From NCBI GenBank assembly GCA_025210515.1, contig JAOARM010000010.1, positions 1 to 64,000 on the forward strand: a DNA stretch of 64,000 nucleotides, given 5' to 3'. Positions 12,185 to 28,267 of this stretch are shown one piece after another. Source of the DNA: Vallitalea sp. (GTDB taxonomy: Bacteria > Bacillota > Clostridia > Lachnospirales > Vallitaleaceae). Numbering within the stretch: the first letter of the stretch is position 1; every line of letters starts with the position of its first letter. Both the position numbers and the translations under genes were made by a program. The notes below the pieces were generated by a model. The model was not told the DNA's origin, ran no database searches, and saw only the letters and a program-made list of their open reading frames with translations.

Positions 12185-12389
12185 ATGGATAACATTATAC
12201 TCTATTTACTCAACATTATTCAATACCGGTATAAGCAATTTTGTTGGTTAATTCTTTTTATCGCAAAATATATTCCTCTAAAGCAGTGGGCTTTTGATGA
12301 TTCCCGTTCTCCTAAATATCAAAAATTTAAAACAGAAATTCTTCCTGTCGTTATCAACTATGAAATTGTAGATTATGACTTTCTAAAAT
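12185..12389 (+). pseudogene. Truncated transposase, N-terminal fragment
   Basis: From the ATG at 12185 about 65 residues read as the beginning of a DDE-type transposase: a hydrophobic start, then AKYIPLKQWAFDD, SRSPKYQKFK and ILPVV, phrases I associate with Firmicutes IS transposases. After about 12375 the frame only continues antisense to the large surface-protein gene, so the rest of the transposase is absent. The exact IS family is not assignable by eye. Confidence 0.5.
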
Positions 12390-15300
12390 TTCCTATGATA
12401 TCTCCAATAATCTTCTCTATCATCAATAGTAATTACTACAGTATCTTTTTTAACTGTACCATTGCTATATACTACAGTAAATTGTAATGATAAGTTTTCG
12501 GGGTTTTTTCTTCCCCATCTGTGAATCATAGAGTTTTCCCATAGTTCTCCATTCCAATTTGTTTTGTTTTTGGTGATTAAATTGATACTGTATGGCTCTT
12601 GTAATATTTTCACTTCTACTTCTTTTGCTTCTACTGTACTTTGGGGATTGATAATTGTTGTATCTGCACTTACTATAAATCTTTCTCCTGCCCAGTAAGT
12701 GTTATAGTCTCTTGGTGAGTTATCTGTATTAGTTTTGGACTGATTGTATTTTTTCCTGTTTTCATCCCACTTGGGGGTATGGTTTGCATGTCCTGTTATA
12801 TTTAGTTCGTATACTATAAAGATCTTGTTAGCTTTCGCTATTCCTCCATTGTTATCATCTACTGTTACTGTTATTTTATAGTTACCTGTTGGAATATTGT
12901 TTGTTAAATGGGCTTTTATTTTTTCATATGTATTTCCTTTGGGATTAGAAATTATTGTTTGTGTGTTTAATATTGTTTTATCTTTTGCTAGTTCTACTTT
13001 TATTGTAAGTATATCTAGGTCTATATCATGTACTTGTATATCAGCAAATACATTATCTCCTTCATATATATATTCTGGTTCTGTAGATTGTATATTTATG
13101 GTTGGGGGTGTATTATGGGTGAATTCATAGGTATGGTTTTCAGTTTCAAATTCACTACTTGGTAGAGTTGCTTTAAATTGTGCATTATAATTTCCATCAG
13201 AAATTGCAATTCTTTCTTCTTTGTAATTAAGTACCCAGTATTTTAATTCATTTTCTTGTTTTAATAGTGTAAGATTTCTAGTTCTTTCATATGAAGTCCC
13301 TTTATATAGTGTGACACTTACTGAATTAGCATACTTACTTGTTGTTGCAGATATTGTTGTTTCTCTGTCATAAGTTATCTTGTTTTTAGGTATAGTGCCT
13401 TTTAAGTTAATTGGTGTATCTATAGTTACATCAAATTCTTTGTATGCCTTATTACTTCTATTACCTTCTGATACTGCATATAGTCTAAATTTATAATTAC
13501 CACTTTTTAGGGTAGGTGGAATATTATAAGTAGAATCTATCCAAGTATAGTCTTGCCCCTTTATAGTTGCTTGTGAGCCTGTATTATGTACTTCTAAGTT
13601 ATTACTTACTTTAGTACCTTGTTTATATAAAGCCATCTCTAAGTAATGATTATATGGAAATCTTGTTATAGTATCATATGATATAAGATTTTCACTTGCG
13701 GGTATACTGTTTAAACTAAACTTTGATAGTTCTGTTTTAAGTTTTGTTTGTAATATTTGTGGTGGTGGTATTGTAGGTAGTGTGTATTGCTTGATACACT
13801 GGTCGCTCCAAGTTTTCTCTAAGTCTTTTACACTATAACTTACTGTATATGTTGCACCTGGTTGTAAGTTATCAGGAATCTTATAATATTTTTCACTTGG
13901 GTAAGCATTATCCCAGTATATTATTTTCCTATCTATAATACCTTTATCTTTGTGATTAAATTCATGGTCTAGGTCATAACTCTTGTCTATCCATATTGTT
14001 TTATATACCTTACTATTTTGATCATATGTCCAATCAAGATCAAAGTCACATATAGGTCTTCTGTGTATGTTAATACTTGTTTTGTATATATTAGAGTATA
14101 GTTCTTCATCTTCATAATCTTTTATACTGTCTTTTACTTTGTGATATATTTCTAGTTTTCCAGTTTTATTTAGTATAGTTGGTTTATGACTTGTCCAGTT
14201 TTTATCATCTATGAACTCTGATTGTGCAAAACTAAATGTACCTATAGGATTGTCATAGATATTAGGTTTATGTACATATTTAAAGCCGTTTTCTTTAAGC
14301 CCATCACCTTCTGATTCTAGTTCTATTGATTCTATGTTAATTTGATCTCCTAATTGTACAAGGTAGTCTGATGAAAATGGATTAGCATCTGCTATATTTT
14401 TTAAGAATTTGTCTATATTACCTAGCATATCATTGTTAGGATAATAATTATCGTAATGGTGACTCTGTGTTTTTATTATGTCATTTCCTATTAATCCAAT
14501 AGTTAGATCATGAGCTTTAATTATATCGTTAAACTCTTTTGTAACTAATCTTCCTTTATGATCACTAGATAATGTAGTATTTATTCCATCTTCTGATATA
14601 TATAGTATATATTTTTGTGAGTCTGGTCTAAATATGTTTACTGGCTCTTTTTGTCTTACATATTTGTATAGTGTTCCTGAGTAATATCCTGTATAGTCAT
14701 TAACTTTTCTTACATCTGATTCGTAAACTTGAACTATCTCACAAACTTCGTTTGTAGTATAGGTACTATCACCACAGTCACCACCCTGTTCATGTCCCGA
14801 AACTCCACAGTCACATCCACCACTATGACATCCATATTTAGGGTGACAGCATTCTTCTTCGGTATGACATTCGCGTCTACTAACATATCCACCAAAATCA
14901 CGATAGTAATAATTATTAACTGTATTATATAGTGTAAGTGTTCCAAAGTATTCTCCACTTGTATGAGATATACTACTTCTTGGGTATGATGCACCTGTAT
15001 TTCTGCTAGTAGATACAGGAGTTGTATGTTCGTAAACTTTCATATCCCACATAGATATTACTGGATTAATACCAAAAGAACGTAAATAATTGTCATATTG
15101 TACTTTTTGACTTTTTATTTTTGATTTCTTATTATTAGATAAATTTTTATCTAGTGCTATTATTACATCAACTTTTGGAAAGTTATAAGGTATGTCAAGA
15201 TGAACTTCCGCAAGTGGTCTTAGGTTTTCTACAAAGAAATCTCTTGTTATAGTGTTACTTCTATTTCTTGTATTATCTAACCATTTGGTAACTGTTTGTT

Positions 15301-17758
15301 GTCCATATGATTCATCTGCTGATATAATAGCTCTATAGTAGCCTAATTCTTTAGGTGTATAAGTGAAATCATCTGTTAGCGGTTTTGTAAGTATTTTTGT
15401 TTCGTATGTACCGTCTTTATCTTTGTCTTTATAGATAGTTATTGTTTTATTTGTGATTGTATCTTCATCTATCGATTCGACTCCATATTCCATTAATAGC
15501 TTTTCATTTCTAGCCAAATAGTTATTCCATATATTAAAATTCATTGCAGGCTTATAATCTTCTAAAACAACTAATGGTAATGTATATGTGCTACTTCTTC
15601 CAGTATCGTTAGTGGCTGTACATTTTATTTGATATGTACCTTTTTTGGATGATTGGAATATATAATCTTCTCCATGTTTTTCATAGTTTAATTTAGTTAT
15701 ATCACTATTATTTAAAGCTGTAATTTCGTATGAGTAGCTTGTTGGGTAATGACTTGTTAAGTATGGAACATTAATGTTATTTGATGTATTAGTTGTTTCA
15801 AATTTACGATTCTCTTTTAGAGTACCTGTAAGCTTTAATTGTGCTTTAGGTTTAGTGTTATATACTGTTACCCACCTTTGAACAGAACTTCTTAAATCAT
15901 CTTCACTAGTTGCAGATATTTCTACAAGGTGAAGTTCAGAGTTATTAAGATTTTCTATTGCTCCAAAGCTAAATCTATTATTGAAAAAATCATCTACAGA
16001 TACATGGATAGGTATTCCGTCTATAGTTACATGAAGCCTATCTATATCTTTTTGTTTCATACCATTTATAGTAGCATTATAAGTATGGATATCAAAAACT
16101 TTATCAGGTAATTCAACATCTATCTTTATTACTTCTTTAGTTCTCCATATAAGAATCATTTGTTGATATGTATCTGTTATTTCAGTAGTAGCAGGCTCTT
16201 TCTCTTCGTCATTCTCTTCGTCATTTTCTTTGTCATCTGAAGAACTAGTATTTTCACTAGCAATAGTCTTGCTTATTGTCTGTTTTATTATTATTTTATA
16301 AAACGTTTTGCCTTTTGACATATTATATAATATTTGATTAATAGTATCACTATCCATTGATGAAGTGTTATATATTTTAGTTATTGTTACATTATCATCT
16401 AATAAATCTGTTCCAGTAATTTCAAAAGTATATTTATCTCTATCACCTACAGATAAATCCTGGTAGTCAAATAGTGATGGTGTTAATGGTGTTATTTTTT
16501 GATCTATTGCATTTGTTACGCTAAATACTGATTTTAGATTACTACTTGAAAAAGTTGGTACGTATTTATGCTCCGTATCATTGTTAATTACTTTATTAAC
16601 TGTATCGCTATCATCATCTTCTGCATTACCCGATTTAATATTAGATGATTTTCCATATTCAATATGTGCGAGTCCATTAACTATAAAATTACTATCTTTA
16701 ATTTTATTTCTTGGTATCTTTAACATTATTTTTTGATGGCATATATTAGTTTCTTTATCCCCCTTCCATCTGAATTCCTCATCATTTATTTTTAGATAAT
16801 ATTGGTTAATATCTTCTCTATTGTAATATATTTGTTGTTGGATTATATCATTGCCATCATGTGTTTTATCATCATCAAAACAAAATTCATCTTTTAAAGT
16901 AATAGTTATGTCGACAGCTACAGTAATATATTCTTGGGATGGATATATATTATAATGTCCTTTGTTAAGTATGTTAACATCTAATTCAATTGGTGTTTGT
17001 TTTTTACCTTCTCTTTCTTTTAATGAAAAAGTTTGATACCAATATCCACTATTGTTTTTATGCCACATACGACATTCACCGTGACTAACTAATGAGGATG
17101 GTGTTAGTACGTTTGCGTAGTCATATGGCTGCATACTTATTTCTTTTTTATTTCCGTTTAGAATTTTAAAGGGGAAAGTTCCATTAATCCATTCTTGAGT
17201 ATGTATATCTCCACCTATAGCTTCATCATTAAATCTACTTATTTTATCATCTTCTCTTTTAGACATAATAGGATTTTCCCAATAATGATATTGCCATGTT
17301 TTAGTTTCGGGCTTACGTGTATAGGCTTGGTCTACAGGAAAACAGTCATTAGTATATTTAATACCATCTAACGAATAACCATGATAACGATATTCACCTT
17401 TTACTCCGTTTTTAGTATAGTATGGAGTTGTTACTGCTGGATCAGGATTTTCTGTATAGTTTTTAAAATCATTACTTGGTACATAACGATAATCTCCATA
17501 TACACCAATGTTATAATCAACCCATAATTCAGTATTAAATCTTAATGTAACCATCTTACCTCTAATTGGTACTTGTATTGTAGGTTTGTTTTCATATTCA
17601 GCAGGTAATATTAATGTATCAAATAGTATATCTCCCGATATTCCTTCATATTTATATTTATCATTTTTATAATAAATAGTAGCATTAGAAGTAATGTTTA
17701 TATTTGTTATTAAAACACATATAATTACTAAAATGCTTGTTATCTTCTTTTTATTCAT
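12383..17758 (-). CDS. Giant secreted multidomain surface protein
   Basis: A 1791-residue protein with a signal peptide (residues 1-26, basic start, hydrophobic core, SNA-type cleavage site) and AGGAGT upstream of its ATG. No transmembrane anchor or sorting signal is visible. An acidic Ser/Asp/Glu linker lies near 498-523. Several segments look like Ig-like or PKD-like beta modules. Around 858-1120 a Rossmann-like, possibly von Willebrand A-like region (VDVIIALDKN, then YILYISEDG and IGLIGND) is interrupted by a Cys/His-rich insert near 956-1006 with about ten cysteines. It lies 11 bp behind the SLH protein gene, so the two are co-transcribed. The C-terminus abuts a cut-off transposase and may be secondarily truncated. 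Function is unknown; a pilus-associated adhesin or surface scaffold is inference from the neighbouring Tad locus. Confidence 0.85.
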   Translation of the reverse strand: MNKKKITSILVIICVLITNINITSNATIYYKNDKYKYEGISGDILFDTLILPAEYENKPTIQVPIRGKMVTLRFNTELWVDYNIGVYGDYRYVPSNDFKNYTENPDPAVTTPYYTKNGVKGEYRYHGYSLDGIKYTNDCFPVDQAYTRKPETKTWQYHYWENPIMSKREDDKISRFNDEAIGGDIHTQEWINGTFPFKILNGNKKEISMQPYDYANVLTPSSLVSHGECRMWHKNNSGYWYQTFSLKEREGKKQTPIELDVNILNKGHYNIYPSQEYITVAVDITITLKDEFCFDDDKTHDGNDIIQQQIYYNREDINQYYLKINDEEFRWKGDKETNICHQKIMLKIPRNKIKDSNFIVNGLAHIEYGKSSNIKSGNAEDDDSDTVNKVINNDTEHKYVPTFSSSNLKSVFSVTNAIDQKITPLTPSLFDYQDLSVGDRDKYTFEITGTDLLDDNVTITKIYNTSSMDSDTINQILYNMSKGKTFYKIIIKQTISKTIASENTSSSDDKENDEENDEEKEPATTEITDTYQQMILIWRTKEVIKIDVELPDKVFDIHTYNATINGMKQKDIDRLHVTIDGIPIHVSVDDFFNNRFSFGAIENLNNSELHLVEISATSEDDLRSSVQRWVTVYNTKPKAQLKLTGTLKENRKFETTNTSNNINVPYLTSHYPTSYSYEITALNNSDITKLNYEKHGEDYIFQSSKKGTYQIKCTATNDTGRSSTYTLPLVVLEDYKPAMNFNIWNNYLARNEKLLMEYGVESIDEDTITNKTITIYKDKDKDGTYETKILTKPLTDDFTYTPKELGYYRAIISADESYGQQTVTKWLDNTRNRSNTITRDFFVENLRPLAEVHLDIPYNFPKVDVIIALDKNLSNNKKSKIKSQKVQYDNYLRSFGINPVISMWDMKVYEHTTPVSTSRNTGASYPRSSISHTSGEYFGTLTLYNTVNNYYYRDFGGYVSRRECHTEEECCHPKYGCHSGGCDCGVSGHEQGGDCGDSTYTTNEVCEIVQVYESDVRKVNDYTGYYSGTLYKYVRQKEPVNIFRPDSQKYILYISEDGINTTLSSDHKGRLVTKEFNDIIKAHDLTIGLIGNDIIKTQSHHYDNYYPNNDMLGNIDKFLKNIADANPFSSDYLVQLGDQINIESIELESEGDGLKENGFKYVHKPNIYDNPIGTFSFAQSEFIDDKNWTSHKPTILNKTGKLEIYHKVKDSIKDYEDEELYSNIYKTSINIHRRPICDFDLDWTYDQNSKVYKTIWIDKSYDLDHEFNHKDKGIIDRKIIYWDNAYPSEKYYKIPDNLQPGATYTVSYSVKDLEKTWSDQCIKQYTLPTIPPPQILQTKLKTELSKFSLNSIPASENLISYDTITRFPYNHYLEMALYKQGTKVSNNLEVHNTGSQATIKGQDYTWIDSTYNIPPTLKSGNYKFRLYAVSEGNRSNKAYKEFDVTIDTPINLKGTIPKNKITYDRETTISATTSKYANSVSVTLYKGTSYERTRNLTLLKQENELKYWVLNYKEERIAISDGNYNAQFKATLPSSEFETENHTYEFTHNTPPTINIQSTEPEYIYEGDNVFADIQVHDIDLDILTIKVELAKDKTILNTQTIISNPKGNTYEKIKAHLTNNIPTGNYKITVTVDDNNGGIAKANKIFIVYELNITGHANHTPKWDENRKKYNQSKTNTDNSPRDYNTYWAGERFIVSADTTIINPQSTVEAKEVEVKILQEPYSINLITKNKTNWNGELWENSMIHRWGRKNPENLSLQFTVVYSNGTVKKDTVVITIDDREDYWRYHRKF

Positions 17759-17769
17759 TTTATCAACTC

Positions 17770-19746
17770 CTATTCTCTAACTCTACTTGGCTTTTTCTCT
17801 ATTTGTGGATATGCATGATCTATTTTTCCACCTTTAGATGAAATATCAAAATGCACACTATGATTTTGATTAATAGTAATAAACATTTCTCTATCATTCA
17901 TTTTTAAAGTATATTTATATTGGTGTTCTTTCATATCTGCACCTATTTCTAATGCTTCAATAATTCTTGATTTAGCCCATTCAAATTTATCTTCATATAG
18001 ATACATAAGCATTGTGTTAAACATGGTTTCATACTTTTTATAACGTTCCATGTAGGACAGGTTGTGTACATCATTATATAACGATATAGAATATGAACTA
18101 CCCGTATTGTGATTAGCATTTCTTATAGAAAAACTAACCTCTGTATTTTGGATAATAGTAACAATAGGCGTTGTTGTTCCGTCAACTGTACTATTAATAT
18201 CATTTAAACATTTATAAGAAATACCAATTGGGTTTTCTTCATGTCCTAACTGAGAAACATAAACATACCCTTCATTATCTTGATAAACTTTATCCATAGC
18301 ATACATTAATTTAATAGCATCTTCATCGCCATTAGCATTAGTATAAACACGACCTTTGAAGTCTTTACCATCACCCATTTTATAATCAGCATATCTATAT
18401 ACATCAAAGTAGATTCCTTTATCATCTTTTGGTACATTTTCAATAACTGGTACATTATACTTTTTCATCATACAAGGAGAGCAAGGCTCTTCACCGTCTT
18501 TTTCTTCAACTTTTGTTTCATTAAGGACTTTATCGTTGGTAAGTATATTACCACCTTTAATACTTATATTAATAATTACATTTTTCTTTTTATTAAGAGC
18601 TATATACATTTCTCTATCGCCCATATCAATAGTATATTTTTCTATTTCTATGTTCATATGTTGTGCATCATTTAATATTCTTAAAACAGTTTCTTTGGCT
18701 TGTGGAAACTTATCATTATATAAATACATAAGAATTGTATCAAACATACCTCGATACTTATCATAACGATCACTATAAGAATATGTATCGTTATAATCAA
18801 GACTTATACTATATGAACTATCTGCGTCATGCTTACTATGTCTAATATTAAAAATAGCTTCACTAATATTTTTATCATTATCACTACTCTTATTTAAACA
18901 ATCATATTTAACACCTATATAATGCTCTTTAGTACCGATTTCAGACACTTTAATATCTGCATCAATATCTTTATATGCCTTATTAAGTCCATACATTAAT
19001 TTAATAGCATCATTTTCACCGTTAGGGCATTCATAAATACGAGCTAATTTTTCATCGTTGTTATATAAGTCAAAGTAAAACCCTGCATCATCTTTTTTAA
19101 TATCATTATCTGATACTGTAGGTGGAATATACATAGGCTTACGATAAGATGAATCTAATAGTCTTGATATTACGGTTACGGCTTCAACTCTAGTAGCATT
19201 ACCTTTTGGATCAAAACCTTTGTCTTTTCCAGTAATTAAACCATAGTAATAACATTCAACAACATCTTGAAGATATCTACCATCTATATTGTAATAATCT
19301 TTAATACTATTTTTTACAAAGTTAAAATCTTTAGTAATATTATCTCTTTCTTCTTTATAACCAAAAGCTTTCATAACAATTGATGCTATTTCTTCTCTAG
19401 TAATAATTTTATTATATTTATCAAATTGCCCATCTTCAACTAACCCTAGTTCTAATGCTTTATTAATATAATTCTCAGCCCAATAAGAAGAACCATTTTT
19501 AATGTTAGTATGTCCTAGAGCTGTGACACATAGTTTAATAAAAGCATCAACATTAATGTTATCGTTAGGCTTAAAAGTACCATCTCCATAACCGCTAATA
19601 ATTCTTTTGGATACTAATTTATTAATGCTATCTATTGCCCAATGATTGTTGGAAATATCAGAAAATATACTTCTTTCTGTTGCATTTGCTGATAGAATGT
19701 TGTTTGTTAACATTATGGCTATTATTAATATTATTGTTTTTTTCAT
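17770..19746 (-). CDS. SLH-domain surface protein with a duplicated unknown domain
   Basis: A 658-residue protein: signal peptide (about 1-22), three SLH modules (about 26-70, 85-130 and 140-200; GYGDGTFKPN is the clearest motif), then two related domains of about 190-220 residues (about 213-395 and 425-645). The two copies share ENDAIKLMY/DEDAIKLMY, SSYSISL, a MFDTILMYLY/MFNTMLMYLY helix and DREMYIAL/DREMFITI near their ends. SLH modules bind pyruvylated secondary wall polymer, so the protein should sit on the cell surface. A GGAGGAG site precedes the ATG. It is the first gene of a minus-strand operon with the giant protein and is divergent from the Tad locus. Confidence 0.88.
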   Translation of the reverse strand: MKKTIILIIAIMLTNNILSANATERSIFSDISNNHWAIDSINKLVSKRIISGYGDGTFKPNDNINVDAFIKLCVTALGHTNIKNGSSYWAENYINKALELGLVEDGQFDKYNKIITREEIASIVMKAFGYKEERDNITKDFNFVKNSIKDYYNIDGRYLQDVVECYYYGLITGKDKGFDPKGNATRVEAVTVISRLLDSSYRKPMYIPPTVSDNDIKKDDAGFYFDLYNNDEKLARIYECPNGENDAIKLMYGLNKAYKDIDADIKVSEIGTKEHYIGVKYDCLNKSSDNDKNISEAIFNIRHSKHDADSSYSISLDYNDTYSYSDRYDKYRGMFDTILMYLYNDKFPQAKETVLRILNDAQHMNIEIEKYTIDMGDREMYIALNKKKNVIINISIKGGNILTNDKVLNETKVEEKDGEEPCSPCMMKKYNVPVIENVPKDDKGIYFDVYRYADYKMGDGKDFKGRVYTNANGDEDAIKLMYAMDKVYQDNEGYVYVSQLGHEENPIGISYKCLNDINSTVDGTTTPIVTIIQNTEVSFSIRNANHNTGSSYSISLYNDVHNLSYMERYKKYETMFNTMLMYLYEDKFEWAKSRIIEALEIGADMKEHQYKYTLKMNDREMFITINQNHSVHFDISSKGGKIDHAYPQIEKKPSRVRE

Positions 19747-20117: not shown

Positions 20118-21692
20118 ATGATAGGGAGTATTTACTTTGGTAAATACCGAATTATTAAGCAAATAGGAAAAGGTGGCATGAGTCAAGTTTTTCTTGCTAA
20201 AAATATTAAACTTGGAAATAAATTAGCAATAAAAAGAGTTAATAAGAAAAACAACGCTATTAATTTATTGATTGAGCCAAGCATATTAAAAGATCTTAAC
20301 CATCCATTAATTCCACATATAGTTGATATAGAAGAAGATAGAGAATATCTATATATAATAGAAGAATATATAGAAGGAGTTAACCTTGCAGTATATAAAA
20401 ATATAAATAAAAATATTAGTGAAGATATGATTATTAATATTGCTATTCAGATGTGTGATGTACTTGAATACTTACATTCGAGAAAACCATATCCTATAAT
20501 TTATCGTGATATGAAACCAGAGAACATTATAATGTTAGATGATAATATTATTAAATTTGTTGATTTTGGTATAGCAAGGCAATTTAAACATAATGATGAT
20601 ACTGATACTGTACTAATTGGAACAAAAGGCTACTGTGCACCAGAGCAATATGTTAGCGATTGCCAGAGTGATACAAGAACTGATATATATAGTTTAGGAG
20701 TGACGTTATATTATCTGGTTACAGGAAAAAATCTATCTTCACCTCCATATAAATTAGTACCAATTAGAGAATTGAATAATAATTATTCTAATAAATTAGA
20801 GAATATTATTATTAAGTGTACTCATAATAATCCAGAAAATAGATTTCAGTCAGCGAAAGATATTAAAGAAGAACTACTAGAAATTAGAGATACTTCTAAA
20901 AAGGTTAATAATACAACATATTCAGTAATTAAACAGAAAACTATTGGAGTAATATCTCTTACTAAAAGAGCAGGAGCCACATTTTTTGCCACCAATCTAG
21001 CTATAGCATTATCTGAAAAAAATATAATAACCTCATTGATTGAGTTGCCATACGAAGAACCATATATTTATGATATGGTTGGTATTTCTAATTACAATAA
21101 GGAGTATTACTCCATAATAAATGAAATAGATAATGAAAATCCCATACATAGAGAAAAAATAACTAAAATTGAAGATATTCTATATTTAGTCATTGATCCA
21201 ACTAGAAGAAAAATTGCTTCTTGGGATGATAATAAAACTATGAAACTAATTTATTCAGCCAAAGAGTCTTTAATATCAATAGTTGACATAGGTAGTAACT
21301 ATTTCAATGTTGAAAATATATTAGATGAATTTGATTTGCTGTATGTAATTTATGATGCTATGCCTCCTGATCTAATGGCTAATTATTCATTGTACGAAAA
21401 AATATATAAGTATAATGAATCAAGTAAGAAAGTAAGATTTGTGTTGAATAAGGATAATAAAGGTATTAACAAAAAAACACTTAATAAGTATTTAGGAATA
21501 AAACCGGATATAACTATACCACATATGCCGTTAGAACTAATATATAAAGCAATATATAATAAAGAATATCCATATGAAGAATCAAAGCTTAAAAATACGT
21601 TTGATATATGCTTTTCTAATATTTATAGAGAATTATTGCCGAAAGGGTTTAATAATAATAAAAATAAACGTAGCTTTTTAAAACGACATTAA
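20118..21692 (+). CDS. Ser/Thr protein kinase fused to a TadZ/MinD-like P-loop domain
   Basis: A 524-residue protein starting at 20118, seven bases after GGAGG; an earlier ATG at 20094 lacks a site. Residues 10-265 are a Hanks-type kinase with the glycine loop GKGGMSQV, K39, catalytic D131 in YRDMKPEN, D149 in DFG and an APE motif near 174. From about 275 the protein is a MinD/ParA-like fold: SLTKRAGATFFATNLA resembles the deviant Walker A of TadZ/CpaE, with Ala in place of the usual second lysine. No transmembrane helix or PASTA repeats are present, so it is cytosolic. As first gene of the Tad locus it may phosphorylate or position the pilus machinery. The fused architecture is directly visible; the role is inferred. 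Confidence 0.88.
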   Translation: MIGSIYFGKYRIIKQIGKGGMSQVFLAKNIKLGNKLAIKRVNKKNNAINLLIEPSILKDLNHPLIPHIVDIEEDREYLYIIEEYIEGVNLAVYKNINKNISEDMIINIAIQMCDVLEYLHSRKPYPIIYRDMKPENIIMLDDNIIKFVDFGIARQFKHNDDTDTVLIGTKGYCAPEQYVSDCQSDTRTDIYSLGVTLYYLVTGKNLSSPPYKLVPIRELNNNYSNKLENIIIKCTHNNPENRFQSAKDIKEELLEIRDTSKKVNNTTYSVIKQKTIGVISLTKRAGATFFATNLAIALSEKNIITSLIELPYEEPYIYDMVGISNYNKEYYSIINEIDNENPIHREKITKIEDILYLVIDPTRRKIASWDDNKTMKLIYSAKESLISIVDIGSNYFNVENILDEFDLLYVIYDAMPPDLMANYSLYEKIYKYNESSKKVRFVLNKDNKGINKKTLNKYLGIKPDITIPHMPLELIYKAIYNKEYPYEESKLKNTFDICFSNIYRELLPKGFNNNKNKRSFLKRH

Positions 21693-21706: not shown

Positions 21707-22378
21707 ATGAAAAATTTATTGAAAGGTTTTTTTGGTGTAATTCTAATTATATGTGCAATTGGGACAATATTTTATTGGGAGATGTATGGAAGAGAACATT
21801 TATTATATGAAAACATTGTTGTATTAACTAAAGATGTGAATAGAAATGATATTATAACAATTGAAATGATAACATATCAAAAAAGAGAGGGTAGTCAGAT
21901 TGTAAAAGGAGCAATACTTGATGAAAATAAAATTATTGGAAAAGCAGCTAAATCATATATTCCAAAAGGAGTTCAATTAGTAGAAAAATACTTTGAAAAT
22001 CATAAGTTAGTTTTAGATAATAATGAATATATATTTCAGATTCCTACAGAATGGATTAGAGCTTTTCCCAGTTCCATTAGGAGAGGGGATACTATATATT
22101 TCTATGAAGTAGGACAAGGAATTGAGAATCATAATGGGGCTGAAGTAGAAATAATATTAAACAACACACAAGCTTTAGAAAAAGAACCCATCACAAGTGC
22201 CACAGTTGCATATGCTAAGGATAGTGCTAATCGGGAAGTAGTAACGTTAAGTGATAATGAACGCTATGATGGTTCAAGTAAAATAAGTGAAATAGAAATC
22301 ATTGCCAATCTGGAAATAGTGAATTCATTAAGAGAATCAGTTGATGATAATAAACTATTTATTATAATGTATCAGTAA
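21707..22378 (+). CDS. CpaB/RcpC-like Flp pilus assembly protein (SAF domain)
   Basis: A 223-residue protein with one N-terminal hydrophobic helix (about 6-24) and a SAF-like domain beginning near residue 35 (VVLTKDVNRNDIITIEMI, then PKGVQLV near 88). This is the arrangement of CpaB/RcpC proteins of Tad pilus loci. It starts 14 bp behind the kinase-ATPase gene with GGAGG upstream. Gram-positive Tad loci lack an outer-membrane secretin, and CpaB there is thought to act at the cell envelope. Confidence 0.75.
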   Translation: MKNLLKGFFGVILIICAIGTIFYWEMYGREHLLYENIVVLTKDVNRNDIITIEMITYQKREGSQIVKGAILDENKIIGKAAKSYIPKGVQLVEKYFENHKLVLDNNEYIFQIPTEWIRAFPSSIRRGDTIYFYEVGQGIENHNGAEVEIILNNTQALEKEPITSATVAYAKDSANREVVTLSDNERYDGSSKISEIEIIANLEIVNSLRESVDDNKLFIIMYQ

Positions 22379-22436
22379 ATAATACTTGAGATTAATTAGC
22401 ATCATTCATAAAAATAACTTATATGGGGGACAGTTT

Positions 22437-23561
22437 ATGATAACAAAAAGATATAATATTAATCTAATTTCTAACAATGAAAATCTAAGAAGAAAGCTAT
22501 ATAATGTTACATATTTTGACGAAGTGTTAATTAATACCACTCTAGAAGAAATGAATCAGCAAATAGCTATAATTGATGATGAACTAATTAATATAAATGA
22601 GTTATTACAATATAGAGAAAATATATTATCAGAATATATTTTTTATAAAATATCAGAGAAAAATTTTAAGTTCTCAACAAAAAGTATATTAGAGTCCTAT
22701 AATATAAAATTGCTTCAACCATATATGACAGATGATAATGTTGTTGAGTGTGTTTGCTCAGAAGTTATTAAACATTATAAATTCACGGTAAATAAGAATA
22801 TTATTACTTTTTTTGGTGCAGATAGCAAAGTTGGTACAACTCAAGTTGCTCAAAGTATAGCTGAAGAAATTGTAGATAAATCATATGCAAGAGTATGCTT
22901 AGTTTTTCTAGATGGAGAATCGGGTACAGATTATTTCGACATATCTTTTAGAAATAATATAGATACAATAAAAATAAAACTTATATCTAATTTAGCTACT
23001 GTAGATGAAATATTTGATATTTCAGAGAATATAAAAGATAATCTATTTGTAATAGAAGGAACGAAATCAATACTATATAGAAAAGAATATCAACCAGAAC
23101 ATATATCATATTTATTAAACATTTTATCAGTAGCGTGCGATTTAGTGGTGGTAGATGCAGGAAGCTGTATAGATAGAGCAATGTCTATTGCCGCTCTAAC
23201 ATCAACTAATCATAGATATTTGGTTACTACCCAGCAGGCTAATAGTCTAAGAAGATATAAAGAAAAAAAGCCTATTTTAGAAAGGTTATCTTTAGATGAT
23301 TTTCAAATTATTGTTAACAAACATATGGCAAATGGAGCGTTGTTAACTACATTCGATATTGCTAAATTATATAGTCACCCATATCTATCTAAGATAGATT
23401 TTTCTCGTTATGCATTACAAGCTGAAAATGATAAAAAATCTCTACTTCATTATAAAGATAAATTATTTAATCGTGATATTAACAAATTAGTAGATATAAT
23501 AATTAATCAAATAAAACTTAGTAAAAAAGAAACTACTAAGAAAAAATTATTTCGAGTATAG
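22437..23561 (+). CDS. CpaE/TadZ-like ATPase
   Basis: A 374-residue protein. The start at 22437 is chosen because GGGGGA lies just upstream; an earlier TTG at 22386 has none. The first 115 residues could be a receiver-like domain, and from about 135 a MinD-type domain follows with the altered P loop GADSKVGTTQVAQ, in which the Walker A lysine before Thr is missing, and VVVDAG as a Walker-B-like strand. CpaE/TadZ proteins localise the Tad assembly machine. It is the second TadZ-like domain in this operon, after the kinase fusion. Confidence 0.78.
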   Translation: MITKRYNINLISNNENLRRKLYNVTYFDEVLINTTLEEMNQQIAIIDDELININELLQYRENILSEYIFYKISEKNFKFSTKSILESYNIKLLQPYMTDDNVVECVCSEVIKHYKFTVNKNIITFFGADSKVGTTQVAQSIAEEIVDKSYARVCLVFLDGESGTDYFDISFRNNIDTIKIKLISNLATVDEIFDISENIKDNLFVIEGTKSILYRKEYQPEHISYLLNILSVACDLVVVDAGSCIDRAMSIAALTSTNHRYLVTTQQANSLRRYKEKKPILERLSLDDFQIIVNKHMANGALLTTFDIAKLYSHPYLSKIDFSRYALQAENDKKSLLHYKDKLFNRDINKLVDIIINQIKLSKKETTKKKLFRV

Positions 23562-23572
23562 AGGTGATTTGT

Positions 23573-25060
23573 ATGAGTGAGTTAGGTACATATAAGGAAA
23601 CTTATTTTGATAAAGCGATGATTAAAGAGTTTAATTTACAAGAGTATATATACTCAGTAACAGGTGAAAAAAGAGAAGAAGTTATTAATATTACTCGTGA
23701 TGAATTAACAAGATTTCAGATGCTTTGCGATACAATATTTCTATACTTTCATTCTGAATGGGATAGAGAAGGATTAGAAACAAGCACATTAAATAGACAA
23801 AAAAATGCAATTCTTGGAAAAGAGATTGAAGTAAAATACTTCAAAGATAACATTGAAGATTATCTCAAGAAAAATAATAAATTAGGTGAATGGTATCCTA
23901 ATTGGTATATAGATTTAATAGATGCAATTTATCAAGAGTGCTGGGGGTTAGGTGGAATTGCAGAATGGAAAAATAGTAAGGAATATGAACTTTCTCAATC
24001 TGCCAAAATAATAGGAAATAGAATATATTTTATGGAAAACGGGAAAATGAAATTACAACAGCAGACTATCTCTGACGAAAGAAGAAGGCAACTAATAAAA
24101 GCATTATTGTTAAACGAAAAAAATATTCATTATGATGGTAGACATGCAGAGGTATCTATGCATGATGGAACAAGAATTACAATATACGGTGAAAAGATAG
24201 TTAAAGAAAATCTCGAGGTAATAATATTTAGAAAATATATAATACCTAAACTAACTTTTGAAGAACAAGCAAAAAGAAAAACTATTCCATATGAAGCTAT
24301 CACTATGTTTAAGAACATGGTTGATATTGGATATAATGTGTTATTTACTGGAGCCGTAAGAACAGGTAAAACAACTTTTCTTGAAACGTGGCAAATGTAT
24401 GAGAATACAAGTCTTGAAGGACTTATGATTGAGACTGGGGCAGAGATTCCTTCGCATAAACTTCAACCTTTTGCACCTATTATTCAATTAGTAGCTGATG
24501 ATGACGAACTTGGTAATATAATTAAACCTATTCTTCGTTCAGATGCTGATTATATAATAGCAGCAGAAGCTAGAGATGGTAGAGCCTTAAATGTTTCCAT
24601 GAGAGCAGCCAATAAAGGCACTAGAAGATGTAAAACTACTTACCATACAACTGAGCCAATAGATATTTGCTATGATATAGCAGATGAAATTGTTAAATTC
24701 TATGGTGGAGATTTGTATAATACTATTTTTAAAGTATCTAAATCGTTTCATTATGTTTTCCATTTTATTCAATTAGCCAATAAAGATAAGAAAAGATTAA
24801 AAGGTATATATGAAATTAGGTTTGATAGACAACTACATACCATTACTATACACCAAATATGCCAATATGATTATGACAAAGACTCTTGGAAATTCAAGTA
24901 TGATATTGGACAAGATAAAGAAGACATAGGACATGAAGAAGATAATAGAGCTTTAATAAAATTTAAGAAAGAGTTAAAAAAACTTGAGCAATTATTTCCC
25001 TATGATGATTATAGTATATATGAACCAACATATGAAAGAGTAAAAGGGGTGAATCAATGA
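23573..25060 (+). CDS. CpaF/TadA-type secretion ATPase
   Basis: A 495-residue type II/IV secretion-family ATPase that should power pilus assembly. Walker A is GAVRTGKTTF (about residues 260-269), and the later ADYIIAAEARDGRAL segment corresponds to the Walker B/Asp box region, followed by a TTYHTTEP segment in place of the usual TIHANSP. GAGGTGA overlaps the upstream stop and sets the start at 23573. The C-terminus overlaps the next gene at ATGA. The C-terminal 100 residues are divergent and charged. Confidence 0.9.
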   Translation: MSELGTYKETYFDKAMIKEFNLQEYIYSVTGEKREEVINITRDELTRFQMLCDTIFLYFHSEWDREGLETSTLNRQKNAILGKEIEVKYFKDNIEDYLKKNNKLGEWYPNWYIDLIDAIYQECWGLGGIAEWKNSKEYELSQSAKIIGNRIYFMENGKMKLQQQTISDERRRQLIKALLLNEKNIHYDGRHAEVSMHDGTRITIYGEKIVKENLEVIIFRKYIIPKLTFEEQAKRKTIPYEAITMFKNMVDIGYNVLFTGAVRTGKTTFLETWQMYENTSLEGLMIETGAEIPSHKLQPFAPIIQLVADDDELGNIIKPILRSDADYIIAAEARDGRALNVSMRAANKGTRRCKTTYHTTEPIDICYDIADEIVKFYGGDLYNTIFKVSKSFHYVFHFIQLANKDKKRLKGIYEIRFDRQLHTITIHQICQYDYDKDSWKFKYDIGQDKEDIGHEEDNRALIKFKKELKKLEQLFPYDDYSIYEPTYERVKGVNQ

Positions 25061-26001
25061 TAAACTCTATTATAGCAATCATTAAAATAATATGCTATTG
25101 CTTAGTGATTATTGGCATATGGATGATGTTTTCTAATCATATATTTTATTTTATAAAAGTTGCTAAGCCAAAGAAAACTTTTAGGCAAGAAAAAGAAGTT
25201 ACATATTCGGCTTTATACAAGCATATAAAACGGTTATTGCTTGTTGTATATGGAAAAGACGATGATAAAAACGTATCTGCTTTTTATTTAATAAGTATCG
25301 TATTATTCTTTCTTACATTTTTAGTTGTTGTTCAGAGAACTGGAGTTATTCGTTGTATTCTCTTTGCATCAATAATCGCCCTTGTTCCTTATATATGGTT
25401 AAGATTACAATTAAAACAAATTAGAGTTGAAGGTAGTTATGAGGCAGATATAATTATTAATGAATTATTGAATCAATATAAATTAAACAATCATAATATC
25501 TATGATGCTATTGATGAAACTGTTATTAAAATAAAAGAAGCACCTATGATGAAGAAACAACTATTTATTATGTCTCTTAAGTTAAAAGAGTATAGGAAAA
25601 TAGAAGAGTTAGATGATATAATTGATAACTTTGTATATGCTGTAGGAACTGAATGGATTATATTACTAGCCAATAATATATATATAAGTATTACTGATAA
25701 TGTAGTCATTACACCAGGGCTTGAAGATATACAAAGAGAGATTAAACAAGCAATATCAGATAAAGAAAGAGAAAAGAGAATAAACCTTGAGAGTGTAAGT
25801 ATTGTGAAGTTCTTGACTCCAGCATTATACATCGCTTCTATAATACTGGCTAATTTTGTTTTTAACATTTCAGTCAGAGAATTTATTAATTATCAACTGA
25901 ATACAAAAACAGGATTTAATTATTTTATGCTTATTATTATTATGACTATATTTAATAGTAGCGTACTATTATTATTAAAAAAACAAAAATTTGACATATA
26001 G
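25057..26001 (+). CDS. TadB-like inner-membrane platform protein
   Basis: A 314-residue membrane protein with hydrophobic segments near 7-27, 75-115, 248-270 and 287-306, and a cytosolic helical region between, as in TadB platform proteins. It overlaps the ATPase gene by four bases, indicating coupled translation. Sequence divergence is high; the call rests on topology, length and gene order. Confidence 0.65.
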   Translation: MINSIIAIIKIICYCLVIIGIWMMFSNHIFYFIKVAKPKKTFRQEKEVTYSALYKHIKRLLLVVYGKDDDKNVSAFYLISIVLFFLTFLVVVQRTGVIRCILFASIIALVPYIWLRLQLKQIRVEGSYEADIIINELLNQYKLNNHNIYDAIDETVIKIKEAPMMKKQLFIMSLKLKEYRKIEELDDIIDNFVYAVGTEWIILLANNIYISITDNVVITPGLEDIQREIKQAISDKEREKRINLESVSIVKFLTPALYIASIILANFVFNISVREFINYQLNTKTGFNYFMLIIIMTIFNSSVLLLLKKQKFDI

Positions 26002-26015
26002 TCTGGAGGTTTTTT

Positions 26016-26882
26016 ATGCATAAAAATATACTAATAATTTATTATTGTTTAATTATGATATTATTTACAACTTCTTGGTCAGTTTTTAAGAACATAAATA
26101 AAAAAACAAAATATAAATATACATTTCGGAAACCAAATAAAAGATTACCAATAAATAATAAAGAAAAAAACGCAATAAATAATGTTTTTGCTGAAGCGGG
26201 ATTTAATATTACTTTTCATAAGTATATTAGAATAAGATTAATTGTTTTTATTGTGTTTTCCATATTTATAAGCATTACGTTATTTCAAAGTGATAAGTTA
26301 AAAGTAGCTATAGGAATACTTATAAGTATATATTTTATTACTACCCCTGTATTAACCATAGGAAAAAAAGAAAGCCCGTTTATAATCTTTATGAAAATGA
26401 TAAAAAACATTCATAATCAAAAAAAAGATATAGAAATATATAGAATACTTATTCAACTAAAAAATATTGCTATTACCCAGAAAGAACAACCATATAGTGC
26501 AGATTATACTATAAATCAGCTAATTAAATTCTCAAGACTAACTAAAAAAGCATTAATTAACTTTTTGATGTTTTATAACTTAGGAAGAGAAGATGAAGCT
26601 TATGATAAATTTACACAAGAAATTAATACTAAGATGGGTAATGAAATAGGAATAATTCTTTTGAAACTTGATAAGTTAAAGCCTTTAGAATTAGTACAGC
26701 AGATAGATATTATAAAGAATAGAAATAGGGAGAGGCATATAACAAGAAAACATAGAAAACAAAATAAAATTTCTGATCTTATTTATCTACCAATAATTAT
26801 TCCTGTATTTGTTATATTTCTTAATTTTATTATGATTACTATATGGATTCCTAGAATTGAAAATTCAATATTTTTTGGTTAA
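26016..26882 (+). CDS. TadC-like inner-membrane platform protein
   Basis: A 288-residue membrane protein with an N-terminal helix, a central hydrophobic pair near 72-110 and a C-terminal helix near 255-280. It follows the TadB-like gene by 14 bp with GGAGG before its ATG. Position as the second platform protein after the ATPase and its topology support TadC; sequence motifs alone would not. Confidence 0.6.
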   Translation: MHKNILIIYYCLIMILFTTSWSVFKNINKKTKYKYTFRKPNKRLPINNKEKNAINNVFAEAGFNITFHKYIRIRLIVFIVFSIFISITLFQSDKLKVAIGILISIYFITTPVLTIGKKESPFIIFMKMIKNIHNQKKDIEIYRILIQLKNIAITQKEQPYSADYTINQLIKFSRLTKKALINFLMFYNLGREDEAYDKFTQEINTKMGNEIGIILLKLDKLKPLELVQQIDIIKNRNRERHITRKHRKQNKISDLIYLPIIIPVFVIFLNFIMITIWIPRIENSIFFG

Positions 26883-26925: not shown

Positions 26926-27096
26926 ATGAAAGATTTTTTAGTAATGTGTGCAAAGATTGCACTAGGAATATTTATTGGATTTGTTCTGATTTTTGGAGGT
27001 GCTAATTCCTTAGATAAGAAGGCGGAAACAATTAAGAACAAAGCAGTAAATGAATTAGATAAAATAACATTTACTAATACAATAAAAAATAACTAA
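26926..27096 (+). CDS. Small hydrophobic pilin-like protein 1
   Basis: A 56-residue protein with AAGGAGG eight bases before the ATG. MKDFLVMCAKIALGIF begins a long hydrophobic helix (about 3-26), followed by a charged tail rich in Lys and Glu. It is a clear paralog of the next gene (MKDFIIMCAKIGLGIF). Size, single hydrophobic helix and location make it a candidate Flp-type pilin subunit, although I see no classic prepilin cleavage motif (G followed by F/L-E). Confidence 0.6.
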   Translation: MKDFLVMCAKIALGIFIGFVLIFGGANSLDKKAETIKNKAVNELDKITFTNTIKNN

Positions 27097-27144: not shown

Positions 27145-27303
27145 ATGAAAGATTTTATTATTATGTGTGCCAAGATAGGACTTGGGATATTTATAGCAGG
27201 TATGCTAATACTTGGAACAATGGAAGGTTCAAAAGATAGCTTATTATCCAAGACAAAAAGCGTAATGCAAGAAAGTTTAAAATACCAAAAAAATTATCCT
27301 TAG
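27145..27303 (+). CDS. Small hydrophobic pilin-like protein 2
   Basis: A 52-residue protein starting at 27145 behind GAAGGGAAAAG. The N-terminal half is nearly the same as its upstream neighbour, with hydrophobic residues 3-24; the tails differ. The tandem pair probably arose by duplication. It may be a minor or alternative pilin subunit; function is inferred from context only. Confidence 0.58.
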   Translation: MKDFIIMCAKIGLGIFIAGMLILGTMEGSKDSLLSKTKSVMQESLKYQKNYP

Positions 27304-27368: not shown

Positions 27369-27782
27369 ATGAAGGATTTTATAGTATTAATTGCAGTATT
27401 ATTAATATTGTTACCTTTTCCACTACAATATGCTCTTGAAGAATATAATCATCATCAAAAAGCTGAGATACAATCCTATGTTTATGCAGCGAAAGAAAAG
27501 GCTAAACAACAAGGGTATTTTTCTAAAGAAATAATAAACGAATTAGAAGCAAATATTACTAAAACTTTTAATATTAGTAAGGAGAATATTAACATTGAAG
27601 CTACAAAAACACCAAAGTATAGAACTAATAATTTTTCAAGAAGGGAATTGATATATTATAAAGTAGAAGTCCCTATTAGGAAAATTATAGCAGTTCCTAA
27701 AATATGGGGAATAAATGATCAAGAAAACAAAACAGTATATACTATAGAAGGATATACATCAAGTGAGGCGATTATGCCATGA
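27369..27782 (+). CDS. Pilin-like protein of the Tad locus (137 residues)
   Basis: A 137-residue protein starting MKDFIVLIAVLLILLPFP, again with the MKDF beginning seen in the two small proteins before it. One hydrophobic helix (about 4-22) is followed by a soluble domain with an amphipathic helical region and a beta-rich end. TadE/TadF-like pseudopilins have this shape. The stop overlaps the start of the next gene at ATGA. GGGG lies upstream of the ATG. Confidence 0.55.
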   Translation: MKDFIVLIAVLLILLPFPLQYALEEYNHHQKAEIQSYVYAAKEKAKQQGYFSKEIINELEANITKTFNISKENINIEATKTPKYRTNNFSRRELIYYKVEVPIRKIIAVPKIWGINDQENKTVYTIEGYTSSEAIMP

Positions 27783-28267
27783 AACCATTTATATTTACTC
27801 TTGCTATGTTAATACTATTTTCAATATTTTTAACTTATCAAGTGGATAATAATAATTATATTAGACAGCTGGAAAAATTAAAAAATGTAGCAGACGAGTG
27901 CTCTTCGTCTGCTGGATTATTTTATGACGAAGAATTGTACTCTAAAGGAACAACTATATATAATCAACAAGAAGGTAATAAAGTTATAAAATACGTAATT
28001 AGAAAAAGCTTGAAGTTAGAAGAAGATTTGACGTCTTCACCTAGTAGTTACTGGAAAAATCAGATACAGTACAAAGTTACTTATCTAGACAATAGTAACA
28101 CATCATTTCCATATATGTATAGCGACGAAAAAAATGGATTTACAAAACTTATAACGAAGCCAACTATTGTAGTAGAAATAAATGCATCTAAACCACCCTT
28201 TAGATTGAAATTTATTAACACAAGAGATGCAATAAGAGTATCCGCATACGAATATTTGGACAGATAA
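27779..28267 (+). CDS. Pilin-like protein of the Tad locus (162 residues)
   Basis: A 162-residue protein with a hydrophobic N-terminal helix (about 4-20, MKPFIFTLAMLILF) and a soluble remainder. It is translationally coupled to the previous gene and ends the operon. No prepilin peptidase gene is seen in the window, so any processing enzyme is encoded elsewhere. TadE/TadF-like pseudopilin is the best guess from topology. Confidence 0.5.
   Translation: MKPFIFTLAMLILFSIFLTYQVDNNNYIRQLEKLKNVADECSSSAGLFYDEELYSKGTTIYNQQEGNKVIKYVIRKSLKLEEDLTSSPSSYWKNQIQYKVTYLDNSNTSFPYMYSDEKNGFTKLITKPTIVVEINASKPPFRLKFINTRDAIRVSAYEYLDR

Follow-up and report, generated by a model that had tools for sequence, protein, structure and literature searches.

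A Ser/Thr kinase fused to a predicted TadZ/MinD-type domain, encoded with a Tad-like operon in Vallitalea and usually beside Tad genes in other Bacillota

TadZ/CpaE proteins, such as Eubacterium rectale TadZ (3FKQ) and Caulobacter CpaE, carry a SIMIBI/MinD-type domain behind an N-terminal partner, the receiver domain, and are encoded with CpaB-, CpaF- and TadB-like genes. In Caulobacter, CpaE dimers form a ring around CpaF, CpaE has a C-terminal amphipathic helix, and the REC domains are thought to link the CpaE dimers (PMC13170226). Use of a TadZ-type domain outside Tad pili has a precedent in TsfV of T7SSf, where a TadZ-like receiver is carried on an AAA+ ATPase; the same source also places T7SSg and T7SSh loci next to Tad genes, lists T7SSi in Vallitalea, and describes TscD/TsdD as Hanks kinases that accompany secretion systems and retain an intact active site (PMC11217815).

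Here, we analyzed a 64,000-nucleotide stretch of a Vallitalea sp. genome (contig JAOARM010000010.1, positions 1 to 64,000; hereafter the window), which encodes on the forward strand a 524-residue fusion of a Hanks-type Ser/Thr kinase and a degenerate SIMIBI/TadZ-like domain (20118..21692). The reading frame runs from an ATG at 20118, preceded by GGAGG, to a stop at 21692, and the protein consists of the kinase (residues ~8-250), a linker helix (246-269), the SIMIBI domain (~272-506), and a basic C-terminal tail. The Pkinase model PF00069 matches residues 10-248 with an E-value of 3e-47, and K39, D131, D149, and the APE motif are all present, with YRD in place of HRD in the catalytic loop. No TM helix is found, so the protein is expected to be soluble. 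Like TadZ and CpaE, the fusion pairs a SIMIBI-type domain with an N-terminal partner and lies among CpaB-, CpaF- and TadB-like genes; unlike them, it has a kinase in the N-terminal half where TadZ has a receiver. It also differs from TsfV, since it keeps the SIMIBI part and no receiver. Matches of the kinase to PADLOC models (PD-T4-6, Mad6, and similar) were rejected as signs of a defense function, being generic kinase matches.

The C-terminal half escapes single-sequence searches: Pfam gave no match to residues 268-524 alone, Pfam and NCBIfam together gave nothing useful for this half, and phmmer against the PDB returned only Wzc (E 0.51), so that family profiles and structure prediction were required. 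A profile built from 22 related C-terminal halves matched PDB chains of ParA, MinD, and BY-kinases, the best match being ParA (E 5e-11). Using residues 259-524 together with eight relatives, AlphaFold2 generated a model with a pLDDT of 72.9 and a pTM of 0.79, for which the top Foldseek match was the ParA-family structure 3ea0 (E 2e-10), with FlhG and MinD also among the matches. These predictions confirm, at the level of the model, a SIMIBI fold of the MinD/ParA/TadZ type. In the full-length AF2 model both domains are kept and joined by the 246-269 helix, with an uncertain relative placement (pTM 0.52); the best PDB matches of this model are the kinases Stk1 and PknB. The P-loop of the fusion reads TKRAGATF and lacks the P-loop lysine of a deviant Walker A motif. 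The first-pass annotation, made from the sequence of the window, had described a complete Hanks kinase core joined to a MinD/ParA-like domain with a degenerate Walker A, and both parts of this description hold, including the fold that it had proposed to check by structure prediction.

Mapping conservation on a set of 40 non-redundant fusions sets the two halves apart. In the kinase, K39, E53, D131, K133, N136, and D149 are invariant in all 40, and the activation-loop position T164 is Thr or Ser in 35. In the SIMIBI domain, P-loop position 287 is a lysine in only two fusions (L056 and L061) and the lysine is lost in the other 38, whereas all 40 retain G286 and Thr/Ser288, and 39 of them the Walker B D390. 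The loss of the P-loop lysine in 38/40 makes it unlikely that the SIMIBI module works as a normal ATPase, and the uniformly intact kinase makes phospho-control plausible. Such a pattern is consistent with the kinase being under selection for its catalysis and the SIMIBI half for its fold, without a normal P-loop. The last 20 residues have a mean net charge of +3.7, compared to -0.35 for the rest of the C-terminal half (paired Wilcoxon 1e-9, a value that ignores the kinship of the sequences and applies to a feature, the basic C-terminus, that is common anyway). This tail is basic (net charge of +4 or more) in 21 of the 40 fusions and absent in about half; as a pointer to membrane docking it is only suggestive.

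The fusion is the opening gene of an operon whose other members share its strand and are mostly separated by short gaps; an unrelated oxidoreductase cluster comes after the last of them. The first gene downstream of the fusion encodes a CpaB/RcpC-like SAF-domain protein (21707..22378; PF08666 1.6e-5, TIGR03177 0.0034) with one TM helix at residues 4-22. It is followed by a CpaE/TadZ-like protein (22431..23561; minD_arch 2.2e-7, phmmer to 3ea0 7.8e-5), in which about 120 N-terminal residues precede a MinD-type domain whose P-loop, SKVGTTQ, also has no lysine. The CpaF/TadA-like secretion ATPase (23573..25060) matches PF00437 (T2SSE) at 4.1e-8 and has the Walker A sequence GAVRTGKTT; ComGA, TrbB, and TadA models match it weakly, and its score of 3.6e-169 against our A6 profile comes from a profile that includes the window CpaF itself. 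Next is a TadB-like inner-membrane platform protein (25057..26001), assigned by hhalign (P 8.8e-5 over 231 columns to the TadB-like proteins of L064 and L071) and by a TM pattern resembling that of canonical TadB. A TadC-like membrane protein (26016..26882; TM helices at 5-23, 65-83, 97-115, and 260-278) has no significant family match and is assigned by position and topology; neither it nor the TadB-like protein matches a T2SSF model in Pfam. The neighbors had been named in the first-pass annotation as CpaB-, CpaE-, CpaF-, TadB-, and TadC-like: the first three are borne out by profile matches, TadB by hhalign and topology, and TadC by position and topology alone.

Further downstream, two small reading frames encode tandem paralogues of 56 residues (MKDFLVMCAKIALGIFIG..., 26926..27096, preceded by AAGGAGG) and 52 residues (MKDFIIMCAKIGLGIFIAG..., 27145..27303). 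Both fall below the usual ORF cut-off, begin with MKDF, and contain one hydrophobic segment each, which makes them candidate pilins, although the leader of the pilin-like 56-residue protein is not of the canonical Flp kind. Proteins of 137 residues (27369..27782; one N-terminal TM helix, 5-23) and 162 residues (27779..28267; one N-terminal TM helix, 4-22) occupy TadE/F-like positions and have orthologues in 5/5 genomes of the same genus. Inside the 162-residue frame lies a strong stem-loop of 11 pairs (27888-27914), which scores as a terminator on both strands and may be due to chance. A canonical Flp class III leader (G/xxxxE) was not found in the small TM proteins of the operon, and Pfam gave no match to a prepilin peptidase within it; a candidate prepilin peptidase, recognized by sequence reading only, is encoded in a canonical tad locus elsewhere in the genome (C4, L204). 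The designation "Tad-like" is thus safer than "Tad pilus": what stands of the original "Tad pilus operon" is a compact, divergent Tad-like operon, and the Flp leader and peptidase are the parts that do not. No WXG100 genes are present in the operon, Pfam detected neither an FHA reader nor a PP2C phosphatase among its products, and no substrate of the kinase was found among them. Divergently upstream of the operon lie genes for a secreted-looking protein of 1,791 residues (12383-17758) and an SLH-domain protein (17770-19746). Related Tad-like loci (L031, L034, L036, L197, and L202) are likewise flanked by SLH proteins, in many cases accompanied by a large partner, and the 1,791-residue and SLH proteins may anchor or cap the structure.

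The fusion is not confined to the window. It was found in 22 of 22 sampled genomes of the family, and among 59 relatives we counted 29 fusions, 26 of them with a CpaF gene in the same operon region. Two of the others (G006 and G042) are truncated where the contig stops, with further operon genes adjoining, and one (G055) is unlinked to tad genes and surrounded by genes for a two-component system and an ABC transporter. A survey of 398 genomes of the phylum, in which the best three candidates per genome were scored, added at least 12 further fusions. Four of these 12 lie in tad operons (G124, G390, G431, and G218), three, all from one genus, about 8 kb from a CpaF gene (L183, L185, and L186), and five away from tad genes (G116, G267, G163, G080, and G275). 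The three fusions with CpaF about 8 kb off had looked like orphans; the one followed further (L206) closes a canonical tad operon at its 3' end. Over both surveys, 6 of 41 fusions are not near tad genes (G055 and the five above); in G080 and G275 the flanking genes are like those of tad-carrying relatives and the tad genes are missing. Linkage of the homologs to tad genes, which the first-pass annotation had predicted, is therefore the rule among relatives (26/29 with CpaF in the operon), with 5/12 lying away from them phylum-wide.

Named species with a tad-linked fusion include Paenibacillus thalictri, P. planticolens, P. contaminans, Thermoclostridium caenicola, and Herbivorax sp. P. thalictri (L105) and L178, which belongs to another family, repeat the gene order of the window operon, and the fusion heads canonical-looking tad operons in Paenibacillus and Herbivorax; in L145 and L071, too, it comes before the tad genes. 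The kinase is missing from some Tad-like operons of this type (L197-L203). The fusion is followed in many relatives by a gene for a free-standing SIMIBI protein of 195-228 residues that is kin to the C-terminal half of the fusion and is perhaps a tandem duplicate; in L043 (5452-6087), this gene overlaps the end of the kinase gene. In L064 (1444-4407), a pair of WXG100 genes immediately precedes the fusion and its CpaB/CpaF/TadB/TadC-like operon.

The operon context also bears on what the fusion is in relation to TadZ. P. planticolens (L107) has, downstream of the fusion, a canonical tad operon with a TadZ of its own, which includes a receiver domain (PF21194, 4e-5), along with T2SSE (3e-54) and T2SSF proteins. 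Because a CpaE-like protein is still encoded separately in the window operon, as is a true TadZ with its receiver in L107, the fusion is not the positioning ATPase itself, and the earlier picture of a kinase built into that ATPase has to be given up. The fusion is an additional, kinase-bearing TadZ-like paralogue which, unlike TadZ/CpaE, has lost the P-loop lysine and occurs beside a CpaE-like protein. The canonical tad locus on C4 has no kinase, and its TadZ matches 3FKQ at 3e-21 with an intact P-loop.

Trees of the SIMIBI and kinase domains, made by quick methods, place these proteins in a wider context. In the SIMIBI tree, L199 and the pair L197/L198 form two lineages whose N-terminal half is not a kinase; both branch from within the kinase-fused proteins, which suggests at least two changes of the N-terminal partner. 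The L199 operon is otherwise collinear, and where the kinase gene would stand it has a gene for this SIMIBI family with a non-kinase N-terminal half. Neither Pfam, hhalign (probability 0.3), nor a PDB search supports the L197-type N-terminal half as a TadZ receiver. L197 (1-4177), L198 (1-4955), and L208-L210 represent a second Tad-like locus, found in Vallitalea relatives and in G008 and lying beside an FtsK/SpoIIIE ATPase; its TadZ-like protein has the non-kinase N-terminal half and, by reading of L197 and L198, a C-terminal TM helix. An FHA domain is encoded in L197 at this FtsK/SpoIIIE-linked locus (EssC-type, probably T7SSi).

In the kinase tree, the fused kinases and a set of TM-anchored kinases form one group apart from the PASTA kinases (100 SH-aLRT). 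One TM-anchored member, L047, adjoins PP2C and WXG100 genes, a setting that fits TscD of T7SSc (PMC11217815). On the kinase tree, the nearest relatives of the fused kinase are type VII secretion kinases of the TscD type. In TscD, a TM helix is combined with an extracellular helical region, and PP2C and WXG100 genes lie nearby (PMC11217815), whereas the fusion is soluble and carries a SIMIBI domain. PrkC, PknB, and Stk1 share the catalytic fold, but the fusion has neither TM helix nor PASTA repeats and belongs to a separate clade. A PASTA-type kinase is encoded separately in the window genome, on C19 (L066).

We favor, with a probability of about 0.6, a Tad-associated regulatory kinase, in which an intact kinase is carried on a lysine-less TadZ/MinD-type docking module and acts on Tad proteins. 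As the fusion recurs in many Bacillota, usually beside Tad genes, pilus assembly may be controlled by phosphorylation; of the interpretations that we can infer, phospho-control of Tad assembly fits best. Given the loss of the P-loop lysine, the SIMIBI half is probably a dimerization or docking module rather than a normal ATPase. Hanks kinases such as PknB are activated in trans through dimerization. By analogy with the CpaE/TadZ rings of Caulobacter, the kinase could dock where such rings lie, with the SIMIBI half bringing it to the ring by pairing with itself or with the CpaE-like protein of the operon, and the basic tail might help the fusion to sit on the membrane beside the CpaF motor. Clustering at the ring would let kinase domains meet and trans-phosphorylate the conserved DT motif of the activation loop, and the active kinase would then phosphorylate Tad proteins and switch the state of assembly or of the motor. 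Weighing against this reading are the lack of an FHA reader and a PP2C phosphatase among the operon products, the six fusions remote from tad genes, the kinase-free operons L197-L203, the missing basic tail in about half of the fusions, and the uncertain placement of the two domains in the full-length model.

The fusion might instead be a general or T7SS-type signaling kinase that occurs in tad loci by chance, its SIMIBI half serving to localize it and its substrates lying elsewhere. The placement of the kinase domain together with TscD-type (T7SSc) kinases and apart from PASTA kinases (100 SH-aLRT), the two WXG100 genes upstream of the L064 operon, and the orphan fusions, including those of the Paenibacillaceae L187 and L188 with their flanks kept and tad genes absent, all point this way. 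However, the operon linkage of 26/29 fusions in relatives and the recurrence of the fusion by at least three different tad architectures speak against it, and the window protein has neither the TM helix nor the extracellular part of TscD, nor does its operon encode PP2C or WXG100 proteins; we regard this explanation as rather unlikely.

Improbable in our view is a purely structural role, in which the kinase domain would replace the TadZ receiver as an adaptor in ring assembly and catalysis would be incidental. It would account for one SIMIBI family with swapped N-terminal halves (non-kinase in L199 and L197/L198/L208-L210) and with the L197-L199 domains nested among kinase-fused ones, and it would suit the suggested linking of CpaE dimers by REC domains in Caulobacter (PMC13170226). 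Against it, the catalytic residues are all conserved in 40/40, unlike in a pseudokinase, and the swapped-in N-terminal domain resembles a receiver with an hhalign probability of only 0.3. The C-terminal profile also matches CapA/CapB and Wzc chains (E 5e-7), as it would if this half were a BY-kinase and the protein a dual kinase of polysaccharide export unrelated to Tad, but ParA, MinD, and FlhG are the better structural matches, the P-loop Lys is lost, a Tyr-rich C-terminal cluster is lacking, and the neighbors are tad-like, which leaves this reading with hardly any weight.

A search of open-access papers, with most subscription journals outside its scope, returned no description of a kinase-TadZ fusion, nor is the fusion protein described in the passages of PMC11217815 that were covered. 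A broader and so far unlikely extension of the regulatory-kinase reading is that the kinase-bearing TadZ paralogue defines a signaling module, with kinship to type VII secretion kinases, coupling Tad-like machines to type VII secretion in Bacillota, with ring assembly activating the kinase through SIMIBI pairing. Tad machines are widespread, yet we know of no Ser/Thr kinase reported to be physically built into one. The fusion would offer a direct way into the switching of monoderm Tad systems, with a hint of an evolutionary tie between Tad regulation and type VII secretion.
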